A DNA stretch of 64,000 nt from Miltoncostaea oceani (lineage in GTDB: Bacteria > Actinomycetota > Thermoleophilia > Miltoncostaeales > Miltoncostaeaceae): assembly GCF_018141545.1 (NCBI RefSeq), contig NZ_CP064356.1:1749001-1813000 (forward strand), written 5' to 3'. How positions within the stretch are numbered: position 1 is the first letter of the stretch; each line of letters opens with the position of its first letter. The translations under genes and the position numbers were made by a program. A model generated the notes under the pieces. That model ran no database searches. It had not been told where the DNA came from and saw nothing but the letters and a program-made list of their open reading frames with translations. This document shows, piece by piece, positions 58,898 to 63,803 of this stretch.

Positions 58898-59199
58898 GCA
58901 CGATCCTCCTGCTGATCATCTCGATCCTCGCCCCGTGGGTGGTGCACCTCGCCGCCCCGCGGCAGAGGGCGCTCGCCCTCGTCGGGGTGCTCGCCGTCTT
59001 CCTGCTCTACGGGATCTTCGCCGAGAACCCCCTCACCCAGTGGGAGATGTGGGCCGGCCTCGCGGCCGGCGTGCTGACCGTCCTGTTCCTGGTCGGCGGG
59101 ATCGGCGGCGGTGGCGGCGGCCGCACCCGCGCGCCGCGCACGCGTCGTCCCCGCCCGTCCACCTACGACGAGGGCAACGAGCCGACCGGCGAGATCTGA
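58894..59199 (+). CDS. small membrane protein of unknown function
   Basis: 101 aa with two or three hydrophobic helices (about 1-20, 27-43 and 53-70), then a Gly6 stretch and a basic, Pro/Arg-rich tail ending EGNEPTGEI. GTG 58894 overlaps the stop of the 13-codon ORF. No family recognised. A palindromic terminator follows. Confidence 0.6.
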   Translation: MSTILLLIISILAPWVVHLAAPRQRALALVGVLAVFLLYGIFAENPLTQWEMWAGLAAGVLTVLFLVGGIGGGGGGRTRAPRTRRPRPSTYDEGNEPTGEI

Positions 59200-59207
59200 G
59201 GCGGGGC

Positions 59208-59225
59208 GGTCCCCCGCGGGGGACC
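59208..59225. terminator. bidirectional palindromic terminator
   Basis: GGTCCCCCGCGGGGGACC, a perfect 18-bp palindrome between convergent genes, 9 nt after one stop and 7 nt before the other. Confidence 0.65.
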
Positions 59226-59231
59226 ACGCGC

Positions 59232-60593
59232 CTACGGGTCGGTGGGGTCCAGGTGCTCGGAGATCAGGCGGCTCGCCCGGTCGGGCTCCTCCAGCAGGAG
59301 CAGGCCGCGACGCAGGAACCGCACGCCGTTCGGCTTGTCGCCGGTGGCGAGCAGCGCGATGCCGAGCGGCAGGAAGCCGTCGGCGTACCGGGGGTCGAGG
59401 CGCACGGCCTTCTGGGCCTCGGTGACGGCGTCGGCGGCGCGGTCGGTCTGCTGCAGCAACGCGTACGCCCGGAAGCCGAACGCCGCGGGGTCGGACGGGT
59501 CGAGCCGGCCGGCGGCGGCGAAGGCCAGGGCCGACGGGACGACCTTGTCGAGCTCCGACAGGGCGACGCCACGGCCGAACTCTGCGGCGGCGAGCGACGG
59601 GTCCTTCGCGCGGGCGCGGTTGTAGGCCCCGAGGGCCTGCTTCCAGCGCTCCTGCTTCACCAGGATCTCGGCCTGCACCAGCTGGCCGGGTGCGCTCGCG
59701 CGCCACGCGGCCGGCCAGGCGGCGACGGCGGCGCGCGCCTCGACGAGCTTGCCCGCCTCCGTGAGCTGCCGCGCCTGCGCCACCCGGTACGCGATGGTCT
59801 TCGGCTCGCGGCGCACCGCGACGACCAGCGACTTCGCGTAGTCCGGGGCGGCCTCCCAGTCGGGGCCGGCCTTCATCGTCACGGAGAGGGGGGCGCCCGC
59901 GCGGACCAGCTCGACGGCGACGTCCTTCTCGGCGGGCAGCGACCGCAGCGCGGTGCTCCACGCCCCCGGCGTCGCGACGGGGCGACCGTCGACCGACGTG
60001 ATCACGTCGCCGCGGCGGATGCCGGCGACGGCCGCGGCCGACTTCGGGCCCACGACGACGACGAGCTGCCCCGGGGTCGTCGTGCCCGCCTGCCGCTGGA
60101 AGGTCCTCCAGAGCGGGATCGTGTACGCGGGGAACAGGCCGCGGGGGGTCGTCAGCTTCAGCGTGAAGGGCGCCTCGACGGCGGCGGAGACGCGGCCCTG
60201 ATCGTCGGTCGCCTGGATGCGGACGCGGTAGGCGCCGCGCAGGAGCTGGAAGCCGGAGCTGTCGATCGCCTCGACGCGCAGGTAGGCGCGCCCGGCGGCG
60301 CGGGCCGTCGCATCGGTGCTGGTCTGCACCACCGAGTCGTCGCGGGCCTTGATGACCTGGACCGTGAGCTTCGCGGGGGTCGCCAGGCGGACGCCGACGA
60401 GGAACCGGGCGTGCCCCTGCTGGGCGGTGACGACCCGCGGCATGCGCAGGCCGTCGAGCTTGGGGGCGGCGGCGGGGGCGGTCGGGGTCGGCGCGGGGGC
60501 CGTCGTCGGCGGCGCCGGGGCCTGGGCGAGCGCCGCCGCGGGCACGAGGGCCACCAGGCAGAGCGCGAGCGCGGTTGTGGACCCCCTCGGCAC
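59232..60593 (-). CDS. secreted PDZ and TPR repeat protein
   Basis: 453 aa. MPRGSTTALALCLVALVPAA plus ALAQ is a signal peptide, followed by a Pro/Thr/Ala linker, a beta-sandwich domain (about 50-150), a PDZ domain (AAAVAGIRRGDVITSVDGRP, about 185-255) and TPR-like repeats to the end. No protease domain, so likely a scaffold or adaptor outside the membrane. GTG 60593 gives a proper signal peptide and is 7 nt after a TAGGGT -10. Confidence 0.75.
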   Translation of the reverse strand: MPRGSTTALALCLVALVPAAALAQAPAPPTTAPAPTPTAPAAAPKLDGLRMPRVVTAQQGHARFLVGVRLATPAKLTVQVIKARDDSVVQTSTDATARAAGRAYLRVEAIDSSGFQLLRGAYRVRIQATDDQGRVSAAVEAPFTLKLTTPRGLFPAYTIPLWRTFQRQAGTTTPGQLVVVVGPKSAAAVAGIRRGDVITSVDGRPVATPGAWSTALRSLPAEKDVAVELVRAGAPLSVTMKAGPDWEAAPDYAKSLVVAVRREPKTIAYRVAQARQLTEAGKLVEARAAVAAWPAAWRASAPGQLVQAEILVKQERWKQALGAYNRARAKDPSLAAAEFGRGVALSELDKVVPSALAFAAAGRLDPSDPAAFGFRAYALLQQTDRAADAVTEAQKAVRLDPRYADGFLPLGIALLATGDKPNGVRFLRRGLLLLEEPDRASRLISEHLDPTDP

Positions 60594-60600
60594 GGCCGCC

Positions 60601-60606
60601 ACCCTA
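60601..60606 (-). promoter_or_regulatory. -10 box, leaderless promoter of PDZ/TPR gene
   Basis: TAGGGT on the minus strand ends 7 nt before GTG 60593. Confidence 0.55.
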
Positions 60607-60654
60607 CCAGCGTACGGCCCCCGCACCCGCGGTCCCGGTCCGGGTGCCCCGGAG

Positions 60655-60660
60655 TAGAGT
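60655..60660 (+). promoter_or_regulatory. -10 box of thymidine-phosphorylase-like gene
   Basis: TAGAGT ends 11 nt before ATG 60672; no ribosome site. Confidence 0.45.
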
Positions 60661-60671
60661 GCCGCGCGATC

Positions 60672-61991
60672 ATGGCCGCCCCTCTCGCCCCCGTCGAGGT
60701 GCTCGAGCGGAGCCGGCGCGGGGAGCCGGTCGACGCGGCGAGCGTCGAGGCCTTCGTCCGCTCCTGGCTCGGCGGAGACTCCTCCGACGCCCTCATGTCC
60801 GCCTGGTGCATGGCGGCGTGCCTGCGGGGGATGGAGCCGGAACACGCCGAGGCGATGGCGCGGGCGCTCGTCGGCGGCGGTGAGCGCCTGGAGCTCGGCG
60901 CGCTCGGGCCGGTGGGGGAGATCGGGGCGACGGGGGCGGTCGGCGACGCGGCGCCGCTGGTGGCGGCCCCCCTCGCCGCCGCGCTCGGGGTGATGGTGGC
61001 GACCACCGCCGAACGGGGCCTCGGCCACACCGGCGGCATGATCGACAAGCTCGAGGCGATCCCCGGCTTCGACGCCGACCTGTCGCTCGCCGCCTTCGTC
61101 CGCCAGGCCCGCGACACCGGGATCGCCGTGACGGCGCCCGGCGACCGCCTCGCCCCCGGCGTCCGCCGCCTCGCCGCCCTGCGCGACGCGACGGGGACGA
61201 TCTCGGCGCCCGGACTGGTGGCGGCGTCGATGGCCGCGGGACTGGTCGCGGGGGGCGCCCCCGCGATCGCGCTGCAGGTCGGCTGCGGGTCCGGGGCGCT
61301 GCTGGCGACCCGCGACGAGGCCGAGGAGGCCGCGCGGCGCGTGGCGGCCGTCGTCGCCCCCTGGGGGCGCACCCTCCGCTGGACGGTCGTCGACGCCGAC
61401 GGCCCCCTCGGCCGCGCCGTCGGCAACGCCCTCGAGGTCGCGGAGGCGGCGGAGGTCCTGCGGGGGGCCGGCCACGCGGGGGTGCGCGAGCTCGCGACCC
61501 GCCTGGCGGGGGACCTCGCGGAGGCCGCCGGGGTGGCGCCGGTGGGTGAGGGCCGTGCGCGGGCGCGCGCCGCCCTCGGCGACGGGACGGCCCTCGCGAC
61601 GGCGGAGCGGTGGGTGACGGCGCAGGGCGGCGACCCGGCCGTCTGGACCGACCCCGGGGCCCTGCCGGCGGCGCCCCTGCGCATCGACGTCGAGGCGCCG
61701 CGCGACGGCCACGTGCACCGCGTCGACGGGCGCGCCGTCGGCGAGGTCGCCCGGTGGCTCGGGGCGGGGCGCCTGCACCCGATGCAGTCCATCGACCCGG
61801 TGGCGGGGCTCGAGGTCCTCGTCGCCGCCGGCGACACGGTCGACGAGGGCCAGCCCCTCGCCGTGGTGCACGCCCGCGACGACGGCGCCGGGGCCCGCGC
61901 CCGCGACATGGCCGAGGCCGCGTTCCACATCGGCGAGACGGCGGCCGACGCGCGGCCGCTGGTGCTGGGGGAGGGGGGTGGGGATGCCTGA
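60672..61991 (+). CDS. thymidine/pyrimidine phosphorylase homologue with altered phosphate site
   Basis: 439 aa, the length and domain order of DeoA: helical start, alpha/beta core with ERGLGHTGGMIDKLEAIPGF, and a C-terminal alpha+beta domain. Aligned without gaps to E. coli DeoA numbering, phosphate contacts Lys84, Ser86, Ser95, Ser113 and Thr123 are Ile84, Ala86, Pro95, Ala113 and Met123; Lys190 is Gly. Arg171 and Ser186 remain. It may lack phosphorolysis or use another acceptor. Its stop overlaps the fpg start by 8 nt. Confidence 0.85.
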   Translation: MAAPLAPVEVLERSRRGEPVDAASVEAFVRSWLGGDSSDALMSAWCMAACLRGMEPEHAEAMARALVGGGERLELGALGPVGEIGATGAVGDAAPLVAAPLAAALGVMVATTAERGLGHTGGMIDKLEAIPGFDADLSLAAFVRQARDTGIAVTAPGDRLAPGVRRLAALRDATGTISAPGLVAASMAAGLVAGGAPAIALQVGCGSGALLATRDEAEEAARRVAAVVAPWGRTLRWTVVDADGPLGRAVGNALEVAEAAEVLRGAGHAGVRELATRLAGDLAEAAGVAPVGEGRARARAALGDGTALATAERWVTAQGGDPAVWTDPGALPAAPLRIDVEAPRDGHVHRVDGRAVGEVARWLGAGRLHPMQSIDPVAGLEVLVAAGDTVDEGQPLAVVHARDDGAGARARDMAEAAFHIGETAADARPLVLGEGGGDA

Positions 61992-62832
61992 GCTGCCCGA
62001 GGTCGAGACGATCCGCGCCCAGCTCGCCGACCGGGTGCCGGGGCGCGCGTTCGCGCGCGTCGAGGTGCACGACCCGAAGCTCGTCTCGCCCGCGACGCCG
62101 GAGGAGTTCGTCCGGGAGGTCACCGGCCGCCGGATCGCGGGCCTCGACCGGCGCGGCAAGTACCTCCTCATCGACCTCGACGGGCGGGACACCCTCGCCG
62201 TCCACCTGAGGATGACGGGGCGGCTGCACTGGCGGGCGGCGGGCGACGAGGGGGAGCCCGAGCGCTTCCTCCGCGCCCGGTTCCACCTCGACGACGGCAG
62301 CACCCTCACCTTCGGGGACATGCGGCGCTTCGGCCGGGCGTGGATCGTGCCCGGCACCCCCGCCGAGCGGGAGGGCTACTGGACCGCCCGGGTCGGCGTG
62401 GAGCCCCTGACGCCGCGGTTCACCGCCCGGGTGCTCGGCGACCTCCTCGACGGGCGGCGCGGGCCGATCAAGGCCGTCCTCCTCAACCAGGCGCTCGTCG
62501 CGGGCCTCGGCAACATGTACGTCGACGAGGCGCTGTTCCAGGCCCGCGTCCACCCCCTGCGCCCCGCGGGCGACCTCGACGCCGACGAGGTCCGCCGCCT
62601 GCACCGCGCCATCCGGGACCGGCTCGCCGCGGCCGTCGCCGCCGGCGGGGCGTCGATCGACTCCTACCGGGACGGCCTCGGCGAGAAGGGGCGGATGCAG
62701 GACCTCCTGCGCGTCCACCTGCACCGCGACGAGCCGTGCCCGCGCTGCGGCACCCCGATCGTGAAGACGCGGGTCGCCCAGCGCGGCACCTACTGGTGCC
62801 CCCGCTGCCAGCCGGAGCCCGGCCCGTGGTGA
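61984..62832 (+). CDS. mutM: formamidopyrimidine-DNA glycosylase (Fpg/MutM)
   Basis: 282 aa. MPELPEVETIRAQL gives the catalytic N-terminal Pro after Met removal, with Glu3; RRGKYLLIDL holds the Lys. The helix-two-turn-helix has PIKAVLLNQALVAGLGNMYV, and the C-terminal zinc finger is CPRCG with YWCPRCQ. It excises oxidised purines such as 8-oxoguanine. ATG 61984 is fixed by the MPELPE start; the zinc-less plant or Nei2 types are excluded. Confidence 0.96.
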   Translation: MPELPEVETIRAQLADRVPGRAFARVEVHDPKLVSPATPEEFVREVTGRRIAGLDRRGKYLLIDLDGRDTLAVHLRMTGRLHWRAAGDEGEPERFLRARFHLDDGSTLTFGDMRRFGRAWIVPGTPAEREGYWTARVGVEPLTPRFTARVLGDLLDGRRGPIKAVLLNQALVAGLGNMYVDEALFQARVHPLRPAGDLDADEVRRLHRAIRDRLAAAVAAGGASIDSYRDGLGEKGRMQDLLRVHLHRDEPCPRCGTPIVKTRVAQRGTYWCPRCQPEPGPW

Positions 62833-63803
62833 GCGCCGTCGAGGGCGTCCGGGTCGGCCACTGGACGGACGCGGAGGCCGGGACGGGCTGCACCGTGATC
62901 CTGCCCCGGCCCGGGACCGTCGGCGCCGTCGAGGTGCGCGGCGGCGGGCCCGCGACCCGCGACGTCGACGTGCTCGCCCCCCTCGCGTCGGTCGGCTCGG
63001 TCACCGCCCTGCTCCTGTCGGGCGGCAGCGCGTTCGGGCTCGACGCCGCGTCGGGCGTGGTGCGGTGGTGCGAGGAGCGCGGCCTCGGTCACGCGGCGGG
63101 GCCGGCGACCGTCCCCATCGTCCCGACCGCCTGCATCTTCGACCTCGGCATCACGGGCAACGCCCGGCGCCCCGGCCCCGCCGAGGGGTACGCCGCCTGC
63201 GAGGCCGCCGCACCGGGGCCGCACGCCGTCGGCAGCGTCGGCGCGGGGACGGGCGCGACGTGCGGGAAGCTCCGCGGTCAGGACGGCTGGTGCAAGGGGG
63301 GGCTCGGCGCGGCGACGTTGCGCCTGCACGACGGCGTCACCGTCGCGGCGCTCGCGGTCGTGAACGCGTGGGGCGACGTGCTCGACGAGCGCAACGAGGT
63401 GCTCGCCGGCGCGTGGGACGCCGAGGCGGGTTTCCTCGGCGCCGCCGGGCGGGTCGTGACCCACCCGCCGGAGCACCCCCGCCTCGCCGCGGGCGGCAAC
63501 ACCACCCTCGTCTGCATCGTCACCGACGGCGCCCTCACCAAGACCGATGCGGCGGTCGTGGCGCGGATGTCCCACGCCGGCATGGCGCGGGCGATCTCGC
63601 CGGTGCACACCACGATCGACGGCGACGCGGCGTTCTGCCTCGCCACCGGCGCCCGGCCGGCGAGCGCGTTCGCGTGCGGGGTGGCGGCGGCCGAGGCGGC
63701 GGCGGCGGCGATCCGCGACGCCGTCCGCTCCGCGACGACCGTCCGCGGCGTCCCGACCGGCGCGGAGCGGCGCGCCTCCCTCGGGGGCCCCGGCGGGGGC
63801 TGA
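62829..63803 (+). CDS. P1/DmpA family N-terminal-nucleophile aminopeptidase (S58)
   Basis: 324 aa. VGHWTDAEAGTGCTVIL opening, LSGGSAFGLDAASGVVRW, GAGTGATCGKLRG and GGLGAATLRL are family motifs; AAGGNTTLVCIVTDGALTK contains the self-cleavage site with Thr as likely nucleophile. MSHAGMARAISPVHTTIDGD is the closing signature. It matures by autocleavage and removes N-terminal residues or cleaves beta-peptides. GTG 62829 overlaps the fpg stop; GTG 62826 is an alternative. Confidence 0.9.
   Translation: MSAVEGVRVGHWTDAEAGTGCTVILPRPGTVGAVEVRGGGPATRDVDVLAPLASVGSVTALLLSGGSAFGLDAASGVVRWCEERGLGHAAGPATVPIVPTACIFDLGITGNARRPGPAEGYAACEAAAPGPHAVGSVGAGTGATCGKLRGQDGWCKGGLGAATLRLHDGVTVAALAVVNAWGDVLDERNEVLAGAWDAEAGFLGAAGRVVTHPPEHPRLAAGGNTTLVCIVTDGALTKTDAAVVARMSHAGMARAISPVHTTIDGDAAFCLATGARPASAFACGVAAAEAAAAAIRDAVRSATTVRGVPTGAERRASLGGPGGG

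Follow-up and report, generated by a model that had tools for sequence, protein, structure and literature searches.

An fpg-linked thymidine phosphorylase homologue in Miltoncostaea oceani with most catalytic-site residues replaced and a probable non-enzymatic role

The stretch of Miltoncostaea oceani DNA analysed here (64,000 nucleotides, referred to as the window) carries a deoA-like gene whose product is predicted to fold as a thymidine phosphorylase and has lost most of the residues that define the active site. The explanation favoured here, and held to be fairly likely, is that a vertically inherited, fpg-linked PyNP has repeatedly turned into a pseudoenzyme within the family, its scaffold being conserved, coupled to fpg and given a non-catalytic job. 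Residue comparisons suggest that phosphate-dependent nucleoside cleavage has gone and that the protein has been kept for such a job; the copy in the window is now probably non-enzymatic. Structural or regulatory use is ranked first, translational coupling alone second and rebuilt catalysis third.

Fold and active site of the deoA-like protein

The gene and the codons that bear on its active site are as follows, numbered from the first letter of the window and, for residues, as in E. coli DeoA.

60672..61991, plus strand: deoA/PyNP-family pseudoenzyme of 439 aa, ATG start (Pfam, PDB, AlphaFold2)
60918..60929, plus strand: codons 83-86, canonical DKHS altered by D83E, K84I, H85G and S86A (alignment with 40 canonical copies)
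60954..60956, plus strand: codon 95, Ser/Thr to Pro, phosphate ligand lost (alignment)
61008..61010, plus strand: codon 113, Ser to Ala, phosphate ligand lost (alignment)
61038..61040, plus strand: codon 123, Thr to Met, phosphate ligand lost (alignment)
61173..61175, plus strand: codon 168, Tyr to Ala, equivalent to Y199A, which abolishes human TP activity (alignment, PMC2719695)
61182..61184, plus strand: codon 171, Arg retained, base binding (alignment)
61227..61229, plus strand: codon 186, Ser retained, base binding (alignment)
61239..61244, plus strand: codons 190-191, K190G and K191L (alignment)
61275..61283, plus strand: codons 202-204, DxK to QVG (D202Q, K204G) (alignment)

The protein contains the Glycos_trans_3N, Glycos_transf_3 and PYNP_C domains in that order, each above its Pfam cut-off, and the best-matching solved structure in the PDB is 1brw (E 7.8e-74). 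An AlphaFold2 model (mean pLDDT 93.4, pTM 0.92) gave TM scores of 0.94 against 1brw and 0.91 against E. coli TP (1tpt); since the input was an alignment of ten family members whose remaining rows were canonical, the model speaks for compatibility with the fold and is not proof of it. The predicted structure is that of an NP-II protein. Length, three-domain architecture, glycine-rich loop and PYNP_C are all common to the deoA-like protein and the NP-II enzymes represented by 1brw (PyNP) and 1tpt (DeoA); the difference lies in the catalytic site, where 11 of 13 invariant residues are replaced. Elsewhere in the protein only 12 of 78 invariant residues are lost (Fisher p=1.7e-6). A conserved fold lacking the catalytic motif of its family marks a pseudoenzyme; the frame is open, and the gene shows neither the broken frame nor the dN/dS near 1 expected of a pseudogene.

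E. coli DeoA numbering fits the pocket exactly, as an earlier sequence-only reading of this DNA had proposed, and the alignment bore out each of the residues it had named. None of the five phosphate ligands is left, Lys84, Ser86, Ser/Thr95, Ser113 and Thr123 being Ile, Ala, Pro, Ala and Met, whilst in the base-binding trio Arg171 and Ser186 are retained and Lys190 is Gly. The alignment added losses beyond that reading, namely Asp83 to Glu, His85 to Gly, Tyr168 to Ala, Lys191 to Leu, Asp202 to Gln and Lys204 to Gly. Mutants of human TP help to weigh these changes. H116F and H116K (at the position of His85) and Y199A (Tyr168) are inactive, R202S/E and S217G abolish activity too, and K115A (Lys84) keeps most of it (PMC2719695). 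Because the human K115A enzyme is still active, K84I alone would prove little, and because of the human mutants the loss of His85 and Tyr168 weighs more against phosphorolysis than that of Lys84. With both of these residues gone along with the five ligands, the suggestion that the deoA-like protein has lost classical phosphorolysis appears well supported.

A protein that still worked as a phosphorylase, with phosphate binding taken over by other residues, would accord with the activity of human K115A and with the NCBIfam model NF004490 (thymidine phosphorylase), which the protein passes at 324.5 bits against a cut-off of 269. It scores far below the cut-offs of TIGR02644, TIGR02643 and NF004747. 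Nevertheless this alternative is highly improbable: not only are His85, Tyr168 and every ligand gone, but the alignment, gap-free at the phosphate-ligand positions, places no Lys, Ser or Thr there, so that the substitute Lys or Ser residues that would have told against the earlier reading did not appear, and the replacements seen in relatives are variable rather than compensating. Having passed NF004490, the protein would be named thymidine phosphorylase by automatic annotation, a name that probably misdescribes the majority of the family's fpg-linked copies.

Origin of the locus, fpg linkage and a second PyNP

The deoA-like gene runs into the gene for a DNA repair glycosylase.

61984..61991, plus strand: 8-nt stop/start overlap ATGCCTGA between the deoA-like gene and fpg (sequence)
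61984..62832, plus strand: fpg/mutM, formamidopyrimidine-DNA glycosylase, with MPELPEVE start, H2TH and zinc finger (Pfam PF01149, PF06831, PF06827)

The overlap noted in the sequence-only reading is real: the fpg ATG lies at 61984, and the TGA of the deoA-like gene ends at 61991. In bacterial operons a stop/start overlap makes termination-reinitiation plausible. It is thus plausible, from the arrangement of the two genes, that they are translationally coupled, translation of the deoA-like gene feeding the downstream fpg start by termination-reinitiation. The 42 genomes compared from the window's order all belong to one family, and 39 of them have a match. Of 35 family loci, 33 have an overlap of 8 nt or 1 nt, as do 6 of the 33 loci from the class's other families, counts which are descriptive, the loci being related. 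Furthermore, the deoA-like gene lies directly upstream in all 36 family genomes with a close fpg orthologue, and no such orthologue lacking it was found among them. Both observations suit a rival explanation in which decay has left the protein functionless and the open reading frame persists because fpg translation needs ribosomes that terminate at the overlapping stop. The overlap can account for the kept frame, but not for kept amino acids, a point taken up with the selection results below. Downstream, an S58 (DmpA-like) peptidase gene (window 62829-63803) shares 4 nt with the 3' end of fpg, and coupling may extend to this third gene. The genome also has a paralogue of fpg, 45% identical, on a different contig (G000:C2:51772-52644).

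Among the other families of the class, examination of about 57 PyNP sequences showed all to be canonical, the sole departures being at Lys204 in L112, which has no adjoining fpg, and a cut-off start in L128. In 33 loci of these families fpg follows the PyNP on the same strand. Because canonical copies are paired with fpg in this way, the deoA-fpg pairing is ancestral and older than the loss of the active site. Canonical enzymes such as L047, L077, L080 and L094 are of the same enzyme family as the protein of the window and likewise lie directly upstream of fpg; they carry the full DKHS..S/T..S..T..Y..R..S..KK..D.K set and fpg overlaps are rare among loci of their kind (the 6 of 33), whereas in the window the set is lost and the overlap present. 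Judged by this comparison, the deoA-like gene of the window is an old, vertically inherited copy. It had been suggested from the fpg overlap that the protein acts around damaged bases or nucleosides; the same adjacency is shared by canonical copies across the class, and it was rejected as a specific clue to such a role.

A canonical deoA, the presence of which had been thought worth checking, does occur elsewhere in the window's genome, at G000:C1:285300-286538 (L002/L010). Its residue set is complete, and a match to cytidine deaminase (cdd) begins 33 bases from it on the same strand. The two proteins belong to the same enzyme family and are 39% identical, but the second PyNP has an intact active site, falls in a separate clade and has no fpg link, whilst the deoA-like protein is fpg-linked and has lost its pocket. 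Indeed the unlinked PyNP copies of the family form a clade of their own in the tree, apart from the fpg-linked clade. The second PyNP is the presumed salvage enzyme of the window's genome, in which pyrimidine salvage would be carried out by the canonical PyNP beside cdd.

The linked copy is decayed in all nine genomes with a second copy, and the four genomes with near-intact linked copies have no second one. Gain of a second PyNP was nevertheless found insufficient as the only cause of decay, since no second PyNP was found in the genera g12 and g2 or in G007, G018 and G020, where the linked copy is decayed. Redundancy alone fails as an explanation because in g12, where no second PyNP was detected, the altered pocket is distinct and conserved, and for the same reason a backup enzyme is no general precondition for keeping a decayed copy. 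No cdd match was found in g12, g2 and some others, which fits a loss of pyrimidine salvage there and separates no hypotheses. PF01048 phosphorylases are nearly universal among the genomes examined.

Repeated decay within the family

Scored by residue, the linked copies of the family form a range: L013 and L017 are intact, L073 of G001 (with Ser84) and L012 (with Thr84 and His168) nearly so, most of genus g2 is partly decayed, and L037 of G018 keeps not one of the phosphate and base ligands scored. Congeners of the window's genome have V/S/P/G/M-or-A at the five phosphate positions, or an almost intact site. As a set the altered residues are not conserved in close relatives, a point on which the sequence-only reading had sought evidence: the set I/A/P/A/M is unique to the window's genome, and was rejected as a conserved new signature. 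Replacements vary by lineage, those of Lys190 by Arg, Lys191 by Ala and Lys204 by Thr being recurrent.

A single clade of decayed copies was rejected by the AU test (p-AU 0.0017), with 4-5 changes on the tree, and with it one ancestral inactivation; the tree was built without the pocket columns and has long branches, and the rejection of a single origin depends on it. The near-intact L073, L012, L013 and L017 are interleaved with decayed copies in the trees. In the fpg tree the intact G017 stands next to the decayed g12, the near-intact G021 next to the decayed G020 and the near-intact G001 next to the window's genome, placements which also point to parallel loss. The favoured explanation would accordingly have the PyNP scaffold retained and the catalytic pocket dismantled several times independently. 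Within the window's genus the number of losses is uncertain because the fpg and deoA trees disagree over whether G001 or G002/G003 is nearest to the window's copy.

Two individual copies may be mentioned here. L065 (G016) shows a mirror image of this decay, in that all five phosphate ligands are kept and the base site has lost Tyr168, Arg171, Ser186 and Lys190. L073 (G001:C1:1724360-1729172) has an apparent 1-nt deletion near codon 290, in a very GC-rich stretch of a single-contig genome, and the shifted frame continues in frame into fpg as one open frame of 741 codons. The deletion is either an artefact of assembly or a break of recent date, and the G001 genome yielded no further PyNP.

The pocket of g12 has a character of its own. 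Ile84, Arg85, Leu95, Gly113, Val/Ile123, Ala126, Arg171, Arg190 and Pro204 are consistent across 16 species (L020-L023, L025, L026, L028-L036 and L053). Their genomes are small (about 1.5-2 Mb) and gave no match to cdd and no second PyNP. The replaced positions Arg85, Leu95, Gly113, Ala126 and Arg190 are nearly invariant, and mean entropy in the altered pocket is 0.42 compared with 0.83 overall (p=0.03, an optimistic value as the sequences are related). Such conservation speaks for a pocket rebuilt for another reaction, for example hydrolysis, transfer to a non-phosphate acceptor or action on another nucleoside-like substrate, and the recurrence of Arg190 in many lineages points the same way. 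So does the retention of Arg171 and Ser186 in the window, which tells against the favoured reading in that the protein might still bind a base or carry out a changed reaction. Set against this, no new signature is shared across lineages, the set in the window being its own, and the window's protein has lost His85, Tyr168 and lysines 190-191 together. Altered catalysis is therefore considered distinctly improbable.

Selection on the gene and a possible role for its product

Selection was measured on pairs of these GC-rich genes by NG86 dN/dS and by a neutral relocation test. In close pairs where both copies are decayed, dN/dS was 0.17 for G002/G003, about 0.08-0.17 within g12 and 0.10 in g4. 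The most diverged pair tested, g6, gave 0.48. Between G002 and G003 there are 49 amino-acid changes, compared with a mean of 118 and a minimum of 103 in 500 random relocations of the substitutions; in close decayed pairs overall, changes are 2-3 fold below the neutral expectation. The amino-acid sequence is thus under purifying selection in the close pairs. Along the window branch the deoA-like gene has a dN/dS of 0.35-0.37, compared with 0.12-0.14 for fpg, so that constraint there is relaxed yet still present, and the window's protein may have gone further toward uselessness than the g12 copies.

The faster evolution of the window branch relative to fpg would be in keeping with a functionless protein whose frame is locked by fpg. 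The G001 assembly, with its deletion within the gene, can be read likewise, though the frame that results enters fpg. Coupling, however, would guard the frame and not the amino acids, which are conserved in close decayed pairs to the degree just described; structural invariants are preferentially retained, and no large deletions were seen. Maintenance of the frame for the sake of fpg alone is thus regarded as unlikely.

Under the favoured explanation, a scaffold kept for a non-catalytic job, the deoA-like protein would most likely be a stable dimer of the NP-II type, the dimer being assumed from the family, and would serve as a scaffold or binding partner. A more specific proposal, to which a low probability is given, is that the PyNP scaffold has become a non-catalytic partner or regulator made together with Fpg, such as a nucleoside or base sensor or an Fpg binder, with parallel origins, and that g12 represents a form with a conserved, arginine-bearing pocket. 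No description of a pseudoenzyme of the NP-II family was found in the literature searched, a search to which most subscription papers were closed, and nothing bearing on the gene came from papers in which Miltoncostaea is named. A nucleoside phosphorylase paralogue of a eukaryotic parasite, the subject of a paper cited in PMC7226091, has reportedly diverged from its canonical function; it belongs to the NP-I family, unlike the NP-II protein described here.

The family offers a natural replicate experiment, in which the active site of one enzyme at one locus has been lost on several occasions whilst near-intact copies persist in sister species. It allows one to ask why a metabolic scaffold outlives its catalysis, and to what extent a gene is preserved by being translationally coupled to a neighbouring repair gene. 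As a minor point for annotation, the deoA-like frame is open over 1018 codons (window 58935-61991), running antisense through an upstream PDZ/TPR-like gene, a GC-rich artefact which could mislead gene callers.
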